Assembly: GCF_000325705.1 (NCBI RefSeq)
Contig: NC_019904.1
Location: 1,620,001 to 1,684,000, forward strand
From: Echinicola vietnamensis DSM 17526
Lineage (GTDB): Bacteria > Bacteroidota > Bacteroidia > Cytophagales > Cyclobacteriaceae
Length of the DNA: 64,000 bases
Direction: 5' to 3'
The translations under genes and the position numbers were made by a program. The notes beneath the pieces were generated by a model that was not told where the DNA came from, searched no databases, and saw only the letters and a list, made by a program, of their open reading frames with translations. Shown one piece after another: positions 2,669 through 10,505 of the stretch (position 1 is the stretch's first letter; every line of letters starts with the position of its first letter).

Positions 2669-2941
2669 CTAATTTTCCAGGTTCCACACCCATTCGTCTG
2701 CGGCCATCACCCAATCCCGTATTGGCGTACCGGTCTCATTTTTCCAGTCCATGCCCTGGTAATAAAAATAGAATACCTCGGCTTCGGCCTCGGGAATATG
2801 GAGGTAATTGAAATAGGATTTTACTTCTTCCAGTTTGGGCGGTACTTGTCTTGAAAATGATAAATTTTGAGCATCTTGTGTCATGTCGGATTTCATTTTG
2901 ATGATGCTCAAAATTCTGTAACCGTCCGTTGGAATGGTCAC
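2669..2941 (-). pseudogene. Fragment of a mobile-element protein (C-terminal tail domain)
   Basis: This 90-codon frame has only a GTG start. Its second half (PPKLEEVKSYFNYLHIPE, then EVFYFYYQGMDWKN and IRDWVMAADEWVWN) resembles a short C-terminal module found on primase or helicase-like proteins of phages and mobile elements in Bacteroidota (recall only). The frame stays open upstream of the GTG into the start region of the plus-strand gene at 2960, so it looks like the 3' remnant of a longer gene cut by the arrival of that gene. No independent function is expected. Confidence 0.45.
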
Positions 2942-2959
2942 ACTGTAATCCGAAGGGGG

Positions 2960-3766
2960 ATGGGTTTATATTTAAAAAAGATGAAGGATATGAAATTAAG
3001 TGTTTCAGAAGTTGCTAAAACTCTAAAAGTAGATCGAGAACTAATTAAATTATGGGCATACAAATTTAGTGATTACCTTAATCCTTTGGCCAATCCTCCG
3101 AAAGGAGTACCTCGTAAATTTTTGTTCTCAGACGTAAGCGTACTTGCCTATGTCTATTACCATTGGGAAAATGATCCTGATATTGAATCCATTAAGTTTG
3201 GGTTAAACGCTAGAAATCATGAAGAATATCCCTTTAATGAGATTTTCATTGAGATAGTGCCATTTTTTATGGAGCCTCCTGAGGAATTGGATGAAACATG
3301 GCGACATGGTTCCCTTAGAGGTAGTTTCGGTAATTATGTAGATCGACTTTCTTTAGCTAAGGAATATAAGTTGGCAGGAGATTTATTAGTAGAATCAGCT
3401 ATAGAAAATGGAGTTGTCTATGAAGTTCTAGCACCCATAGTGTATAATTACCGACATGCTACAGAATTATATTTAAAGTCAATTGTAAAGAAGGAGGATG
3501 AAGGGAATTCACATAATTTGAGAAGTTTATTTCAAAGACTAAAGAACTTGCTTAAAGATAAATTTGATTCAGATATACCAATTTGGTTTGAAAATCTAAT
3601 CCTTTCCCTTCATAAATTTGATCCTGACGGAATTAGCTTCAGGTATGAAGGGACTGACCCGTTTAGCAAAGAAGATGAATTATGGGTGGATGCTAGGCAA
3701 TTGCAGAAATTAATGGATATGCTGGAAAGATCGTTTTATAAAATCTTACGAGCTATTGATGCATAG
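2960..3766 (+). CDS. MerR-like helix-turn-helix protein with HEPN-like C-terminal domain
   Basis: A 268-residue protein. Residues about 11-70 (MKLSVSEVAKTLKVDRELI, then FLFSDVSVLAYVYYHW) match a MerR-type winged helix that reads a DNA site. The rest is largely helical; residues about 155-265 (NYRHATELYLKSIV, HNLRSLFQRL, ISFRY) look like a HEPN fold as found in RNase toxins and nucleotidyltransferase partners. The canonical R-X4-6-H active site is not obvious, so nuclease activity is uncertain. ATGs at 2960, 2981 and 2990 are possible starts; upstream the frame runs into the older fragment at 2669-2941, which argues against the longer form. It could regulate the methylase operon or be a separate toxin. 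Confidence 0.6.
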   Translation: MGLYLKKMKDMKLSVSEVAKTLKVDRELIKLWAYKFSDYLNPLANPPKGVPRKFLFSDVSVLAYVYYHWENDPDIESIKFGLNARNHEEYPFNEIFIEIVPFFMEPPEELDETWRHGSLRGSFGNYVDRLSLAKEYKLAGDLLVESAIENGVVYEVLAPIVYNYRHATELYLKSIVKKEDEGNSHNLRSLFQRLKNLLKDKFDSDIPIWFENLILSLHKFDPDGISFRYEGTDPFSKEDELWVDARQLQKLMDMLERSFYKILRAIDA

Positions 3767-4056: not shown

Positions 4057-4908
4057 ATGGAATCAATAAGTACTTTACTAACAAATGATACAACTGCAAA
4101 ACCATTTTTAAGATGGGCAGGAGGAAAAACATGGCTACTCAAATATCTTGATGCTTTTTTGCCTAAAAAATTCAATAATTATCACGAACCATTTATTGGG
4201 GGAGGATCTGTGTTTATTTATTTAAAATCTACTGGGAAGATTAAAGGTAATGCTTATTTATCTGATAAGAATGAAGATTTAATAAACGCTTACAATATAT
4301 TAAAGGACCAACCAGAAGAACTCATCAAAATATTGGGTGAATATAAAAATGAAAAAGACTTTTATTACTTCATAAGAGATCAAAAATTCACAGACCAACT
4401 CAGACAAGCAGGACAATTCATCTTTCTGAACAGAACTTCATTTAATGGAATTTACAGAGTGAATTTAAAAGGGGAATACAACGTTCCTTACGGCTTCAAG
4501 AAATATAAACAATTATTTGATTTTGAAAACTTAAGAAGTCTAAGCAGATTATTAAGCAATACATCAATGAGGTTTCGGGATTTTGCAGAAACCATAAATG
4601 AAATTAAAAAGGAGGACCTAGTTTTTTTGGATCCTCCATATACCGTAGCTCATGGAAATAATGGATTTGTTAAATACAATCAAAAAATATTTTCATGGCA
4701 AGACCAAGAACGGTTAAAAGAATTTTTAGAAGAAATTGTAAAAAAAGAAGCGTATTTTATTCTTACAAATGCAGCCCATGAAAGTATATCCAACTTATTC
4801 AATGATGTAACAAAACCACATGAAATTAATCGATATAGTGTTGTCGGAGGGGTTGGAGCTGAAAGAAGAGAAATCAGTGAGTACATTTTTACAAATTGTG
4901 ATCTATGA
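4057..4908 (+). CDS. DNA adenine N6-methyltransferase, Dam/DpnM type
   Basis: A 283-residue alpha-class adenine methylase that transfers a methyl group from SAM to N6 of adenine in duplex DNA. Motif X is KPFLRWAGGK (residues 15-24), motif I is EPFIGGGSVF (44-53), and the catalytic motif IV DPPY is at 192-195; the NRTSFNGIYRVN block is also typical of Dam-like enzymes. Length is normal for the family. Its stop overlaps the next start (ATGA), so it is translationally coupled to the nuclease/DGQHR protein, as expected of a modification subunit. The 290-bp AT-rich leader (3767-4056) contains no gene but has a 7-bp inverted pair (3855-3861, 3915-3921) that might be regulatory. The site cannot be assigned; GATC is only a family-based guess. 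Confidence 0.93.
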   Translation: MESISTLLTNDTTAKPFLRWAGGKTWLLKYLDAFLPKKFNNYHEPFIGGGSVFIYLKSTGKIKGNAYLSDKNEDLINAYNILKDQPEELIKILGEYKNEKDFYYFIRDQKFTDQLRQAGQFIFLNRTSFNGIYRVNLKGEYNVPYGFKKYKQLFDFENLRSLSRLLSNTSMRFRDFAETINEIKKEDLVFLDPPYTVAHGNNGFVKYNQKIFSWQDQERLKEFLEEIVKKEAYFILTNAAHESISNLFNDVTKPHEINRYSVVGGVGAERREISEYIFTNCDL

Positions 4909-7199
4909 GTTATCAAGAAGAACTATTTAAAGAATTGCTTGACGAAAATAGTATTAAGGTTAAACTAAGGTATAGAAAATCTAAATACCAATACAAGAGC
5001 ATTAAGAAGAGTGAATTAAAGGAACATTTGGATAGTGGATGGGAAATTCAACGACGAAATAAGAACTCTTTTAGAGTTAAAACATTAAAACCAACAGATG
5101 AATGGTTTGAAGACCGAGTGTGGACACTTTTTGCAAAAATGGGATTCAATTACATGAATTCTGATAGAAATTTCCGATTAAAATATACTAAAGACAATTT
5201 AATTCCCGGTAAACAAATTGATGTATTTGCAGTAGATGATGAAACCATTTTCATAGTAGAATGCAAGACGTCAAAAAAGAGAAAATCTAAATCCTTTCAA
5301 TCAGAAATAAATGAAATTAACGGAATTAGGGGTAATATTATTCCAAAGCTGCAAAGGGCATTTGAAGGGAAAAGGAAAATAGCGTGGTTATTTTGTACAG
5401 AAAATATTGTCTTGTCAGATAATGATAAAAGTCGTTTAAAAGAACATAATATATTCTATTTGAATCAAGATGATATTAACTACTATGAACAGTTAATTGA
5501 TCAATTAGGAATTAGTGCTAAATACCAAATGTTTGCAAGGATTTTTGCAAACCAAGAAATTCCCGAAATAAAAAACAAAGTTCCGGCCATTAGAGGTAAA
5601 ATGGGAGGTTATACATATTATTCGTTTTCTATCGAACCAGATACTCTACTTAAAATATCTTATATCCTCCATAGAATCAACACCTCTGACGATACTCTAA
5701 GCACATATCAAAGAATGGTTAAGAAAAGTCGAATTAAACAAATTGATGACTTTTTAGGTGGGGAAAACAACTTTTTTCCAAATGCGATCATAATCAATAT
5801 TGATACAAAAAGAGGAAAACCCCTTGATTTCAATCTAGCCGATGCAGGTCAACATGATTCTAAATCAAAGTTAGGAGTACTTCACCTACCAAAGCGATTC
5901 AAAAGCGCCTTTGTTATTGATGGGCAACATCGTTTATACGGTTACGGAAATAATAATTACAGGTTTACGCATACTATTCCTGTAATAGCTTTTGAAAATT
6001 TACCTTCAGATAAACAAGCTAATCTTTTTGTTGAAATTAATCATAAGCAAAAATCTGTTCCTGCAAACTTATTGAAGTCGTTAGATGCAGAGCTTAAATG
6101 GGATTCCCCAATTCCTGATGATGCTATTCGGGCTTTAAAATCAAAGCTAGCCCAACGTTTAAATGAGCGAGATGAATCACCATTATATAACAGGATAATA
6201 ATTGGAGAAGAGAAAAGTACGCAAACAAAGTGTATTACTCTTACATACGTATTCGATTATGGTCTAAATAAGACTAACCTTTTCGGCGAAATAAGTAATA
6301 GAAGTTTAATTCGTACAGGTCCTCTTTATGCAGGGGATTTAGCAGAAAAAACTTTAGAAAAGGCTTATACATTTTTCAAGCTGTTTTTTGAACTCATTGA
6401 AGAGAAGCTTACAGACCAGTGGGAATTAGGAAATGGAGAAGGGGGATTTGTTGCTCGAAATATAGGAGTATCATCATTCATTGTCATCAGCTGGGATATA
6501 ATGGAATATCTAGGGAAAATTAAAAATATGGCCTTCGAAAAATCAAAAGCTGATGAAATATTTGATGAATTTAAACCCTTTTTAATACTCATAATTGAAT
6601 TTATTAGGAATTTGTCACCAGATGATTTGTATAATATGAGTAGACAATGGGGATCTACAGGGGTTAGTAAGGTTAGACGGGAATTTCAAAGAGTTATACA
6701 TGAAAAGCACGCTGATTTTACTCCTGACGGTTTATCTCAATATATTAAGGAAAGTTCTGGCGTATACAATGATGAAACCCGCGCCAATATTTTCCAAATA
6801 CAAGAAGCAATTAAGGAACATATCTTTAGTACATTGAAAAACGAATATGGAGACAGCCCCGAAAAATGGTGGAGATTAGGTATACCAAAACAAATACAAA
6901 AAGATTGTGCAGTTAAAGCCGTTGAAGCAGATCCGCCTGAACCTCCTGAGAATTTTTTGCTGGTTTTAGATTATCAAAGGATTATTAAAGATAATTGGAA
7001 GTTACTGGGAGATATTTATACCTCCCCTGATCAGAAACAGGGAAATAAAGAAGCTAAAATTTCCTGGTTTGTAAAATTTAATACTATAAGAAATCGTGTA
7101 ATGCACCCAGAGCGTAAGGATGTCACAGAGGAAGAGTATAATTTAGTTAAAGAAGTGAAAAAATGGCTTCTTGATCGAATTTCTGTTGTTTCTTCCTAA
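4905..7199 (+). CDS. Three-domain protein: PD-(D/E)XK nuclease, DGQHR (DndB-like) core, HEPN/Swt1-like tail
   Basis: A 764-residue protein. Residues about 65-190 hold a restriction-endonuclease fold: E69/D70 in WFEDRVW, then KQIDVFAVDD with D106, and the E-x-K pair in IVECKTSK (E119, K121). Residues about 225-560 are a DGQHR domain related to DndB, with DGQHR at 339-343 and the following LFVEINHKQKSV motif. The last 100 residues (WFVKFNTIRNRVMHPER, then TEEEYNLV) resemble HEPN/Swt1-type tails. DndB-like domains belong to the ParB/sulfiredoxin-related group tied to DNA modification. The methylase-coupled position and complete nuclease motif suggest the restriction half of a modification-dependent or modification-protected system. 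That role is inference; the domain calls are from motifs. Confidence 0.8.
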   Translation: MSYQEELFKELLDENSIKVKLRYRKSKYQYKSIKKSELKEHLDSGWEIQRRNKNSFRVKTLKPTDEWFEDRVWTLFAKMGFNYMNSDRNFRLKYTKDNLIPGKQIDVFAVDDETIFIVECKTSKKRKSKSFQSEINEINGIRGNIIPKLQRAFEGKRKIAWLFCTENIVLSDNDKSRLKEHNIFYLNQDDINYYEQLIDQLGISAKYQMFARIFANQEIPEIKNKVPAIRGKMGGYTYYSFSIEPDTLLKISYILHRINTSDDTLSTYQRMVKKSRIKQIDDFLGGENNFFPNAIIINIDTKRGKPLDFNLADAGQHDSKSKLGVLHLPKRFKSAFVIDGQHRLYGYGNNNYRFTHTIPVIAFENLPSDKQANLFVEINHKQKSVPANLLKSLDAELKWDSPIPDDAIRALKSKLAQRLNERDESPLYNRIIIGEEKSTQTKCITLTYVFDYGLNKTNLFGEISNRSLIRTGPLYAGDLAEKTLEKAYTFFKLFFELIEEKLTDQWELGNGEGGFVARNIGVSSFIVISWDIMEYLGKIKNMAFEKSKADEIFDEFKPFLILIIEFIRNLSPDDLYNMSRQWGSTGVSKVRREFQRVIHEKHADFTPDGLSQYIKESSGVYNDETRANIFQIQEAIKEHIFSTLKNEYGDSPEKWWRLGIPKQIQKDCAVKAVEADPPEPPENFLLVLDYQRIIKDNWKLLGDIYTSPDQKQGNKEAKISWFVKFNTIRNRVMHPERKDVTEEEYNLVKEVKKWLLDRISVVSS

Positions 7200-7296
7200 T
7201 CGCAGCTAATTTAATACGCAGATTTCTACATTAGTTTTAGAAGATATAACTCAGAACTCTCAAATTTGAAGTTTAGCTATTTTGATACATAATATT

Positions 7297-7812
7297 ATGG
7301 AGACAAATAAAATAACAGAAGTTCAAAGAGATTTAGTTAAAGAAAAGGCTCATCGAACATTATTCTATACAGTATTTGGCACAATCCTTCCTTTTATTAT
7401 TGGTGCTGTAATATTAATAGCATTTACCAAATTCAAAGAACTTGTGACATTCATTACAGATGGAACGTTTTGCCTTTTTGCTGCTGGATTACTTACTTCT
7501 GCAACATTCCTTATGAACGAAAATAGTGACTCAATTCGATCTAAATGGGATAAGAGGATTCATAAATATCTACAACCTGTCTGGATTATTGTCGCGATTG
7601 TATATGGTGCTGTATATGCCAAAGTCAACTTACCAATTAATGAAAAAATAAATACGGTATTTCTTTGGATTGTTTCAATTGTTTGTTTTTTATTTTCCAT
7701 ATACGCCTTATACAGAGCGCTTTATATTGAAGGGGTTCAGAATCCACCAAAAGTAGATGCTTTAAAAAACAGAAAGACTGATATCGATAATATAATGGAT
7801 GAAATAGGCTAA
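7297..7812 (+). CDS. Small four-helix membrane protein
   Basis: A 171-residue integral membrane protein with an amphipathic N-terminus, transmembrane helices at about 22-43, 54-73, 93-111 and 120-142, and a charged cytoplasmic tail ending DNIMDEIG. No family was recognised. ATG 7297 is preferred over an in-frame TTG at 7282. It lies 97 bp after the nuclease/DGQHR gene and ends 2 bp before the second DGQHR gene, so it is almost surely in one transcription unit with the latter. Membrane proteins in defence operons often are effectors or anchors; that is a contextual guess only. Confidence 0.75.
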   Translation: METNKITEVQRDLVKEKAHRTLFYTVFGTILPFIIGAVILIAFTKFKELVTFITDGTFCLFAAGLLTSATFLMNENSDSIRSKWDKRIHKYLQPVWIIVAIVYGAVYAKVNLPINEKINTVFLWIVSIVCFLFSIYALYRALYIEGVQNPPKVDALKNRKTDIDNIMDEIG

Positions 7813-7814
7813 GC

Positions 7815-8915
7815 ATGGATCAACAGGTAATTATAAAGTGTCTAGAAGTAATCCAGCCAATAGGCAAGTTTTATATTGGTGTTATTAATTATGACGATTT
7901 AGAATTTATTTCCTATGCTGATGTAAGGAGGTTGAAAGATGAAAAGAGAGAAGTAGAAGAATATATTGGGATTCAACGTCCTCTAAGCCCTAGGCGAGAA
8001 AAGGAAATTGGGAAGTATGTTAATCTTATTGATGCCACATTCCCAACGAGCATCATTTTAGCAATTTCATCTAAAAATGCTACATATGATCCTGAAAAGG
8101 ATGAGTTGATAATTGAAAGAAATCAAAATGTAGCCAAAGTTTTAGATGGCCAGCATCGAATCGCGGGGCTTAACAATTGTGATCTACCCGGTGACAAATT
8201 TCAATTAAATGTTACAATTTTTGTAGATATGGAATTAGAAGATCAAGCAATTGTCTTTTCTACCATTAATAAAACACATACCAAAGTAAATAAATCATTA
8301 TCCTATGATCTGTTTGAATTCGCAACTTCCAGAAGCCCCCAAAGAACGGTTCATAATATTGCGCGAGCATTAAACCAAAAGGACGGCAGCCCATTTAAAG
8401 ATAAAATAAAAATCCTTGGAGTGGCCGAAGACAATGAAAAGGAAACGATTACACAAGCTACATTTGTTGAAGCTATCTTAAGGTATATCACTAAAGATAA
8501 AATGAAAGACAGAGATCTCTATAGACGGGGTGGAAGTCCTGAAGAATACACAGGGAATGATTATGAAAAATATTTTTTAAGACCTCTGTTTTTAAATGAA
8601 GAAGATGGGAAAATTGCCCAAACAATTTGGAATTATTTCAAAACAATAGAAAATAAATGGGAAGAGGCATGGATGAAAGTAGAACCCAATAGAATCTTAA
8701 ATCGCTCCACTGGCTTTATAGCACTTAATAGATTCCTTGGAGATATTTATAAAAATCTTAATAAAACGGGGCAAGTCATTAGTTTAGAAGAATACAAAGA
8801 GATTTTCGAAAAGATCGACCTCACATCAGAAGACTTTACAAGAGATAATTATTTACCTGGATCAGGTGGTCAGTCTAAACTTTATAATGATCTTAAGGAG
8901 AAAAGTGGTATTTAA
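7815..8915 (+). CDS. DGQHR domain protein (DndB-like), stand-alone
   Basis: A 366-residue protein made almost entirely of a DGQHR/DndB-like domain. The region IQRPLSPRREKEI (53-65) and the strand before FPTSIILAI are typical, DGQHR is at 111-115, and AIVFSTINKTHTKVNKSLSYDLF follows as in DndB. It shares the core but not the nuclease or HEPN parts with the protein at 4905-7199, so the operon carries two different DGQHR paralogues. DndB controls phosphorothioation genes in Dnd systems, but no dndC, dndD, dndE or cysteine desulfurase is nearby. A role as DNA reader or nucleotide-dependent regulator is inferred. Confidence 0.85.
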   Translation: MDQQVIIKCLEVIQPIGKFYIGVINYDDLEFISYADVRRLKDEKREVEEYIGIQRPLSPRREKEIGKYVNLIDATFPTSIILAISSKNATYDPEKDELIIERNQNVAKVLDGQHRIAGLNNCDLPGDKFQLNVTIFVDMELEDQAIVFSTINKTHTKVNKSLSYDLFEFATSRSPQRTVHNIARALNQKDGSPFKDKIKILGVAEDNEKETITQATFVEAILRYITKDKMKDRDLYRRGGSPEEYTGNDYEKYFLRPLFLNEEDGKIAQTIWNYFKTIENKWEEAWMKVEPNRILNRSTGFIALNRFLGDIYKNLNKTGQVISLEEYKEIFEKIDLTSEDFTRDNYLPGSGGQSKLYNDLKEKSGI

Positions 8916-9342: not shown

Positions 9343-9609
9343 ATGAAAAGAAGTAATTTCAGCGAGGCTCAGATCATCAAGATTCTGGGCTCTCAGGAGG
9401 CAGGTCGTTCGGTATCGGAGATCTGCCGAGAGCATGGTATTAGCCAGGGAACATTTTACAACTGGAAGAGCAAGTATTCGGGGATGGATCTCTCCCAGCT
9501 CAAGCAGATGAAAGAAATGGAGAAAGAGCTGGCCCAGTACAAGAAGATCGTTGCCGAATTGACGCTGCAGAATACGGTATTGAAAGACGTTATCGAAAAA
9601 AAGCTTTAG
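9343..9609 (+). CDS. IS3-family transposase OrfA (helix-turn-helix)
   Basis: An 88-residue DNA-binding half of the transposase. The HTH_Tnp_1 domain covers residues 5-50 (NFSEAQIIKILGSQEAGRSV, then ISQGTFYNWKSKY), and a leucine-zipper helix follows to the end. It ends TAG at 9607 just past a canonical A AAA AAG slippery heptamer (9597-9603). A -1 slip would therefore fuse it to OrfB, the usual route to active IS3 transposase. OrfA alone normally modulates transposition and binds the terminal repeats. Confidence 0.93.
   Translation: MKRSNFSEAQIIKILGSQEAGRSVSEICREHGISQGTFYNWKSKYSGMDLSQLKQMKEMEKELAQYKKIVAELTLQNTVLKDVIEKKL
9597..9603 (+). promoter_or_regulatory. Programmed -1 frameshift heptamer of the IS3 element
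   Basis: A AAA AAG sits in the OrfA zero frame (codons GAA AAA AAG), two codons before the OrfA stop. OrfB is in the -1 frame. This is the standard slippery site of IS3-family elements. Confidence 0.8.
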
Positions 9610-9632
9610 GGCCTGCCGAGAAGCGTGAACTG

Positions 9633-10505
9633 GTGGGCTATGCTCATCAGGAGTTTAAATTGAGCCTTCGGCAGGCCTGTATGCTGTTCCATATGAGCAC
9701 CTCGGTATATTATTATCGCCCCAGGCGCAGGGACGACAGCGAGATCATTGAGCAACTTTCGGGGCTTGCGGAGCTATACAAGACGTGGGGTTTTTGGTTG
9801 ATGTACAAACGGCTTCGCAAGCTGCACTATATGTGGAATCATAAACGGGTTTACCGGGTCTACACATCCATGCGGCTGAACCTAAGGAACAAGCGGAAGA
9901 AAAGACTTCCGGTCCGGGTAAAGGCACCTTTGCTGTGTCCTCTCGGCCCCAACATCACATGGAGCCTTGATTTCATGCATGATACACTTGCCTGTGGCAG
10001 GAAAATACGCACGCTGAATATCATTGATGACTTCAGCCGTGAGGCTCTCGGCATTGTGGTCGACTCAGGTCTTCCGGCCCGGCGAGTAATACGGGAACTG
10101 GAAATGTTGGTCAGCTGGCGCGGCAAACCGGAGAAAATCCGCTCGGACAATGGTCCTGAGTTTATCTCGGCGGCTATGGAAGAATGGTGCGTGGAGAATA
10201 GTATCGAATGGGAATTTACCCAACCGGGCAAACCCACGCAGAACAGCCTGGTAGAACACTTCAACCGGACCTTTCGACATGATGTCCTTGACCGGGACAT
10301 GTTCGACAGCGTGGCTGAACTGAGGACCTATGCCAACGCATGGGCATGGATGTACAACAATGTGAGGCCGCATTCCGCACTGGGATACCTCACCCCGACG
10401 GAGTTCCTGTTGAAATATGGAAAACTCTGCGAGTTTCCCACATTACAACAGGACAACAACAATAAGTGGGATTGGAATTCTTTAGTTTTGGGTGTAGCTA
10501 GTTAA
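9633..10505 (+). CDS. IS3-family transposase OrfB (DDE integrase domain)
   Basis: A 290-residue catalytic half. An HTH_21-like segment (YKTWGFWLMYKRLRKL) precedes the rve integrase core: first D in ITWSLDFMH, second D in IRSDNGPEF, and E in NSLVEHFNR, with 35 residues between the last two, giving DD(35)E. WMYNNVRPHSALGYLTP is the usual C-terminal signature. All three acidic residues are present, so the enzyme may be active. Its natural product is probably the OrfAB fusion made by frameshift; the first ATG-type start lies 23 bp after the OrfA stop. Its own stop lies inside the right inverted repeat. Confidence 0.95.
   Translation: MGYAHQEFKLSLRQACMLFHMSTSVYYYRPRRRDDSEIIEQLSGLAELYKTWGFWLMYKRLRKLHYMWNHKRVYRVYTSMRLNLRNKRKKRLPVRVKAPLLCPLGPNITWSLDFMHDTLACGRKIRTLNIIDDFSREALGIVVDSGLPARRVIRELEMLVSWRGKPEKIRSDNGPEFISAAMEEWCVENSIEWEFTQPGKPTQNSLVEHFNRTFRHDVLDRDMFDSVAELRTYANAWAWMYNNVRPHSALGYLTPTEFLLKYGKLCEFPTLQQDNNNKWDWNSLVLGVAS

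Follow-up and report, generated by a model that had tools for sequence, protein, structure and literature searches.

Closest described systems

DndI, SspE and GmrSD-BrxU combine a nuclease with a domain of the ParB/Srx type that bears the motif DGQ[HQ]R. According to the cited section of PMC11662687, DndI is a ParB-like ATPase (motif DGQQR) fused to a nuclease, and phosphorothioate marks stimulate the ATPase, so that the protein is released from self DNA and unmarked phage DNA is cut. GmrSD enzymes contain a ParB/Srx-fold domain to which the DGQHR domain was reported to be related (PMC4619093), and a DndB-like protein was reported to bind ATP and GTP (PMC12704722). The window, which is the whole stretch of 64,000 nucleotides from Echinicola vietnamensis DSM 17526 analysed here, harbours a locus of four genes encoding an adenine methylase, a 764-aa DGQHR protein (DGQHR1), a small membrane protein (TM) and a further DGQHR protein (DGQHR2). 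Similar to DndI, SspE and GmrSD-BrxU, DGQHR1 joins the ParB/Srx-type domain to a predicted nuclease. However, this nuclease is N-terminal and PD-(D/E)XK-like, a HEPN-like domain is added at the C-terminus, and the partner in the window is an adenine methylase, in place of phosphorothioation or glucosylated cytosine. Pfam matches to HNH, DUF1524 or DUF262 were not found in the locus proteins at E 0.1.

The locus also resembles Type II restriction-modification (R-M) of the DpnII/DpnM type (GATC), in which a D12 methylase is paired with a nuclease, and four relatives carry a DpnII enzyme. In the window, however, the methylase has a ParB-like fusion protein as its partner. A methylase gene and a nuclease gene are both present, the nuclease being assigned by conservation and predicted fold only. 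For DGQHR1 and DGQHR2, the PADLOC-DB 2023 models listed at E 0.1 include no restriction enzyme. The nearest known system in spirit is PD-lambda-5, which its authors, in the passage cited, call a compacted prophage version of an RM-plus-Abi system (PMC9519451). The window methylase matches the PD-Lambda-5_B model with 67 bits, but the DGQHR proteins match no PD-Lambda-5 model (E 0.1, among the models listed).

The DGQHR domain family is shared with DndB of Dnd and DpdB of Dpd systems. In contrast to these, the host genome, a single contig of 5.6 Mb, gave no match to DndC (TIGR03183) or DpdA (NF041059), in line with the earlier statement that no sulfur- or deazaguanine-incorporation gene accompanies the locus. 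Scores with the DpdB model NF041060 are 91.8 and 65.9 bits, below its cut-off of 300, and DGQHR2 reaches 191.7 bits with TIGR04172, below the 450-bit cut-off. A likeness to DISARM is seen in four relatives (L069, L071, L074, L078) that carry DrmA/DrmB-like genes; however, neither DrmA nor DrmB was found among the eight window proteins scanned, and one 18-bit DrmA match lies elsewhere in the genome. Kiwa consists of two genes, one for a multi-pass membrane protein, KwaA, and one for its DNA-interacting partner, KwaB, and the TM-DGQHR2 pair resembles it in this make-up. DGQHR2 has a ParB fold. The PADLOC models listed at E 0.1 for the window and at 0.001 for the relatives include none for Kiwa.

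PADLOC-DB 2023 has no model covering the 764-aa protein beyond partial matches (DpdB and CARF-nuclease models), in line with the original prediction of an undescribed system. Relatives are named 'DGQHR domain-containing protein' or 'DGQHR domain protein' in NCBI and UniRef, and 'DNA sulfur modification protein DndB' in JGI. A description of the system was not found in the excerpts covered, which come from open-licence, non-preprint literature. Among clade-associated genes of Mycobacterium abscessus, a DGQHR protein is listed together with a DpnIIA methylase and two resolvases (PMC9248903); the co-listing, for which that text offers neither a system name nor a function, agrees with the pairing described below.

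Genes of the locus in Echinicola vietnamensis

All four predicted genes are present where they had been placed (Table 1). The ATGA overlap between the methylase and DGQHR1 genes was confirmed, and prediction supports the nuclease, DGQHR and HEPN parts that had been proposed for the 764-aa protein. Gaps of 82 bases and 2 bases separate DGQHR1 from the membrane protein and the membrane protein from DGQHR2, respectively. Three hydrophobic segments were counted in the membrane protein. The host genome contains no further DGQHR gene and no second dam-family methylase, the window gene being the single one.

The closest solved structure to the methylase is 2dpm (DpnII methylase 1), with DNA adenine methylase entries at about 110 bits. 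The loop NGxYRVN...NVPxG is common to the window methylase and DpnM. Among 66 aligned methylases, 64 have DPPY, one has DPPF and one has a gap.

Directly 3' of the locus lies an IS3-type transposase pair (HTH_Tnp_1, rve; window 9343-10505), indicating a mobile neighbourhood. On the 5' side, a 299-aa protein (window 2867-3766) has an apparent N-terminal HTH, recognised by eye, and a HEPN match of 17.4 bits, below cut-off; it is not conserved with either part of the locus.

Table 1. Features of the locus in the window (positions count from the first letter of the window)
Feature	Position	Strand	Evidence or remark
D12-class adenine-N6 DNA methyltransferase, DpnM/Dam-like, 283 aa	4057..4908	+	PF02086 3.3e-49; TIGR00571 222.6 bits; 2dpm 165 bits
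DPPY catalytic motif of methylase	4630..4641	+	sequence
DGQHR1, 764 aa; predicted PD-(D/E)XK-like, ParB-like DGQHR and HEPN-like domains	4905..7199	+	
PD-(D/E)XK-like nuclease region of DGQHR1, residues ~62-195; D106, E119, K121	5088..5489	+	conservation, predicted fold
DGQHR (ParB/Srx-like) domain of DGQHR1, residues ~226-530	5580..6494	+	
DGQHR motif of DGQHR1	5919-5933	+	
C-terminal HEPN-like domain of DGQHR1	6747..7196	+	R729 (7089-7091), H734 (7104-7106)
Small multi-pass membrane protein (TM), DGQHR2 partner	7282..7812	+	ATG at 7297 is the likelier start
DGQHR2, ParB/Srx-fold protein, 366 aa	7815..8915	+	DGQHR motif at 8145-8159

Pairing of adenine methylase and DGQHR1

The methylase and DGQHR1 are a recurrent pair, as had been predicted. 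An N6-adenine methylase lies beside DGQHR1 in 68 of the best 80 of the 292 loci confirmed by a profile scan of the species-genome collection, in bacteria and archaea; these 80 are not a random sample, because they were ranked by similarity to the query. A same-strand Dam-like gene is found within about 1.1 kb of DGQHR1 in 57 of the 80, and an opposite-strand one within 2.5 kb in two more. Eight further loci have a divergent D12 methylase (PF02086 in 8/8), separated from DGQHR1 by two genes in L026, and one has an MT-A70 methylase (L050). Nine loci have no adjoining methylase, and at three a contig edge cuts off any upstream gene; the methylase of L077 is itself cut by the contig end. Since the methylase may be a divergent D12 or an MT-A70 enzyme, the link is with adenine methylation and not with one particular gene. 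Of the 59 cases with the methylase upstream on the same strand, 20 allow a -4 overlap of the ATGA type; that of L035 is spurious, since another gene lies in between.

Hosts of DGQHR1 belong to Bacteroidota, Bacillota, Actinomycetota, Pseudomonadota, Myxococcota, Spirochaetota, Thermoplasmatota, Methanobacteriota and Woesearchaeota. In IMG/VR, 34 DGQHR1 loci were found; the six at full length (L081-L086), which entered the DGQHR1 tree, all have a methylase. A separate draw of 395 genomes of the same class contained DGQHR1 in two besides the host, with the methylase directly upstream in both. Distances of methylase and DGQHR1 are correlated (Mantel r 0.44, n 66, p 0.0002; r 0.66 for the 60 co-located pairs), host phylogeny not being removed in either comparison.

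The nine DGQHR1 loci without an adjoining methylase (L002, L003, L004, L006, L007, L009, L013, L043, L068) count against strict coupling. In the DGQHR1 tree, five of them (L003, L004, L006, L007, L009) group as a single subclade of Bacteroidota close to the window. Matches to the dam family occur elsewhere in the genomes of L004 and L006, and as one 19-bit match in L009. None was found in the available assemblies of L002, L003, L007, L013 and L068 by a search that is blind to divergent D12 enzymes, as it also gave none in the genome of L026, which has a D12 by Pfam. L043 was counted as lacking a methylase with a Dam-like gene 4.2 kb from DGQHR1. The nuclease triad is kept in all nine proteins and the HEPN pair in eight, the ninth being truncated. 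In Flavobacterium paronense (L003, 8091-15056), DGQHR1 is situated between genes for B- and A-type subunits of DNA gyrase/topoisomerase IV, and in Microbacterium (L043, 7566-9314) a McrBC-component gene lies just 5' of DGQHR1.

Three of the seven plasmid matches to DGQHR1 were opened. On a Novosphingobium and a Rhizobium plasmid, no methylase is found among the annotated neighbours of DGQHR1. Because such plasmid genes and the methylase-less genome loci exist, DGQHR1 may be able to function with no adenine methylase linked to it, perhaps relying on a different mark. On both plasmids (Novosphingobium pNL1, L126:5854-12352; Rhizobium, L127:5866-12570) DGQHR1 stands beside a DGQHR gene, a weak radical-SAM match and an ATP-binding gene (HATPase_c_3 in L127), a neighbourhood which is perhaps another DNA-modification cluster.

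Conserved and lost sites of DGQHR1

The DGQHR1 alignment comprises 87 rows (80 from genomes, six from IMG/VR and the window). The DGQHR motif, a QR pair and FxxxN are invariant in all 87. With K-to-R scored as loss, 17 rows have a degenerate nuclease triad. The HEPN R/H pair is intact in 65 rows, lost in 20 and missing by truncation in two; the 20 losses all belong to Bacillota or to a viral contig nested among Bacillota. Judged from this alignment, some branches of the family can do without the nuclease and HEPN sites, and none without the DGQHR motif. An internal stop is present in four of the 87 rows, which we count against our best explanation.

Both catalytic sites are lost only in L069, L071, L074 and L078, which form one clade and have their DrmA- and DrmB-like genes 5' of the methylase and DGQHR1. 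The same gene run includes a gene of the NERD-helicase type, by a scan in L078, and a UvrD-like one, by a scan in L069. The DrmAB association and the double loss are probably a single event. Such a clade would fit a DGQHR part that is the common core, with effectors that can be supplied in trans. DpnII endonuclease and an N6_N4 methylase accompany L035, L037, L047 and L048; as the DpnII enzyme is already there, DGQHR1 need not be the restriction enzyme in these loci. Septu-like PtuA/PtuB genes adjoin the methylase and DGQHR1 in L026 and L031. The DrmAB, Septu-like and DpnII associations occur in one clade each and are therefore probably single events. On the Acinetobacter plasmid pTR3_4 (L135:427-4303), genes for a methyltransferase, a NotI-family endonuclease and a DGQHR protein stand in a row; DGQHR proteins thus accompany other R-M types too.

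Membrane protein and DGQHR2

An ORF of 165-225 aa with three to four hydrophobic segments, counted with a simple Kyte-Doolittle window, ends -11 to +14 bases from DGQHR2 in all 18 loci examined, about 15 of which are independent (L131/L132 and L129/L134 are near-duplicates, and L130 is similar). It is absent at 6/6 contrast loci, hand-picked among DGQHR genes less than 29% identical to DGQHR2, two of which (L033, L082) have no same-strand ORF upstream at all. The window membrane protein is 27% identical to that of L014 and 35% to that of L118; of the 11 small proteins aligned, eight are only 13-19% identical to the window's, too low to show homology. The small membrane proteins scanned gave no specific PADLOC-DB 2023 match.

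An N6-adenine methylase is found in 15 of the 18 loci, 14 times as D12 and once as MT-A70 about 2.6 kb away. L118 has methylase, TM and DGQHR2 (59% identical to the window's), and no DGQHR1 was found there. Seven IMG/VR loci consist of methylase, TM and DGQHR2, four of them colinear and three with the methylase convergent. Genes for tape-measure, tail, anti-repressor or primase proteins are found near L129, L130 and L134, an integrase adjoins L128 and L131, and the single neighbour gene checked in L133 had no match. Three of the 29 plasmid matches to DGQHR2 were opened. A Roseateles plasmid has TM-DGQHR2 with Dam and no annotated nuclease in the stretch shown, an Acinetobacter plasmid (L123) has it with an annotated BglII/BstYI-family enzyme and an adenine methylase, and a Rhizobium plasmid (L125) with MT-A70 and an annotated BglII/BstYI enzyme. 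In three loci tblastn found no Dam-like gene in the fetched stretch: TM-DGQHR2 stands alone in L155, follows a SLFN_AlbA_2 protein in L154 (4732-7412), and follows a HerA-like (DUF87) ATPase in L156 (4695-9988).

The membrane protein belongs with DGQHR2, since the two are paired in 18/18 loci and also occur without the 764-aa protein (L118, plasmids, IMG/VR). The synteny check suggested with the original prediction showed that the four genes recur in window order in Mucilaginibacter (L014) and Pedobacter (L042), and with the second part inverted in L029. The proposal of a single system is corrected here: the window locus is composed of two separable modules, methylase with DGQHR1 and TM with DGQHR2, sharing one methylase. 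The fused nuclease and the membrane protein had also been proposed as effectors; the membrane protein pairs with DGQHR2, and parts of the family lack an intact nuclease site.

Proposed function and alternative explanations

On balance, the locus probably serves a restriction-modification-like defence in which a ParB-like DGQHR switch, and not a classical restriction enzyme, is the common element. Methylation-gated defence, with ParB-like switches that would read the DNA state, appears the most likely reading, supported by the pairing, the correlated distances, the company of GATC-type restriction enzymes, the 18/18 pairing with TM and the precedent of DndI. The methylase would mark host DNA, probably at GATC, given its likeness to DpnM and the presence of DpnII and BglII/BstYI-type enzymes in related loci; the frequency of GATC in the window, which shows no avoidance (observed/expected 0.98), counts against this explanation. 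By analogy with DndI, DGQHR1 is likely an NTP-driven reader which would scan DNA through its DGQHR NTPase domain, its nuclease being restrained on methylated self DNA. On unmarked DNA the predicted PD-(D/E)XK nuclease would stay active, and on methylated self DNA the protein would be released. The HEPN domain would be a likely further output, in which RNA is cleaved as a second response or to kill the cell. In TM-DGQHR2 a reader is likely linked to a membrane effector, forming a second and separately mobile arm that would read the same mark and act at the membrane, and both arms may contribute to protection.

A rather unlikely alternative is that the methylase is mainly a guard, and that DGQHR1 and TM-DGQHR2 sense methylation loss or the attack of another enzyme and kill the cell, through HEPN RNase and membrane damage, with no direct restriction of DNA. 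The intact HEPN pair in 65/87 rows, as against a nuclease site that is degenerate in 17, the presence of DGQHR1 beside DpnII, the trio of Dam, small membrane protein and DGQHR2 in Roseateles and on IMG/VR contigs (part of whose surrounding genes was scanned for nucleases), and the RM-plus-Abi description of PD-lambda-5 all agree with such abortive infection, but, with the HEPN pair lost in 20 rows, RNA cleavage cannot be the way of killing throughout the family. That the DGQHR proteins regulate methylase expression or activity is improbable, although DndB, the best-known DGQHR protein, was reported as a transcriptional regulator that binds to the promoter of its own gene and reduces phosphorothioation (PMC4507180, passage cited), which speaks against our preferred reading, and although DGQHR2 has its sub-threshold match to TIGR04172. 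A regulator would hardly be fused to predicted nuclease and HEPN domains like DGQHR1, or be tied to a membrane protein and occur with HerA-like or AlbA_2 proteins where tblastn found no Dam-like gene, and one methylase would need two regulators here. The IS3-type transposase after the locus and the non-conserved HEPN-like gene before it would also suit mere neighbours in a defence island, with the methylase an orphan Dam in a housekeeping role. Overlapping or near-overlapping genes across phyla, correlated divergence and the single dam-family gene of the host make this highly improbable.

A broader version of methylation-gated defence is possible but doubtful. In it, DGQHR/ParB-like NTPases would be a general reader of adenine methylation with interchangeable effectors, namely the fused PD-(D/E)XK and HEPN domains, DISARM-like DrmAB with helicases, Septu-like PtuAB, DpnII, and the membrane protein. 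Methylase, membrane protein and DGQHR2 would then be a nuclease-free, membrane-acting form of restriction, which rejects or kills on unmethylated DNA.

Implications

The recurrence of both pairings at related loci elsewhere suggests, from sequence comparison, an undescribed kind of self/non-self DNA defence. The cassette of methylase, membrane protein and DGQHR2 is its strangest part. If the proposed reading is true, adenine methylation would guard immunity via an NTP-driven ParB-like switch, and not through a restriction enzyme that just does not cut methylated sites. DGQHR/DndB-like proteins, so far familiar mostly from sulfur and deazaguanine systems, would gain a role as readers of adenine methylation, and Type II R-M would be connected with DISARM-like and prophage-borne loci by one part. 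It would also become a testable question whether a membrane-based response to methylation state is possible with no nuclease involved.
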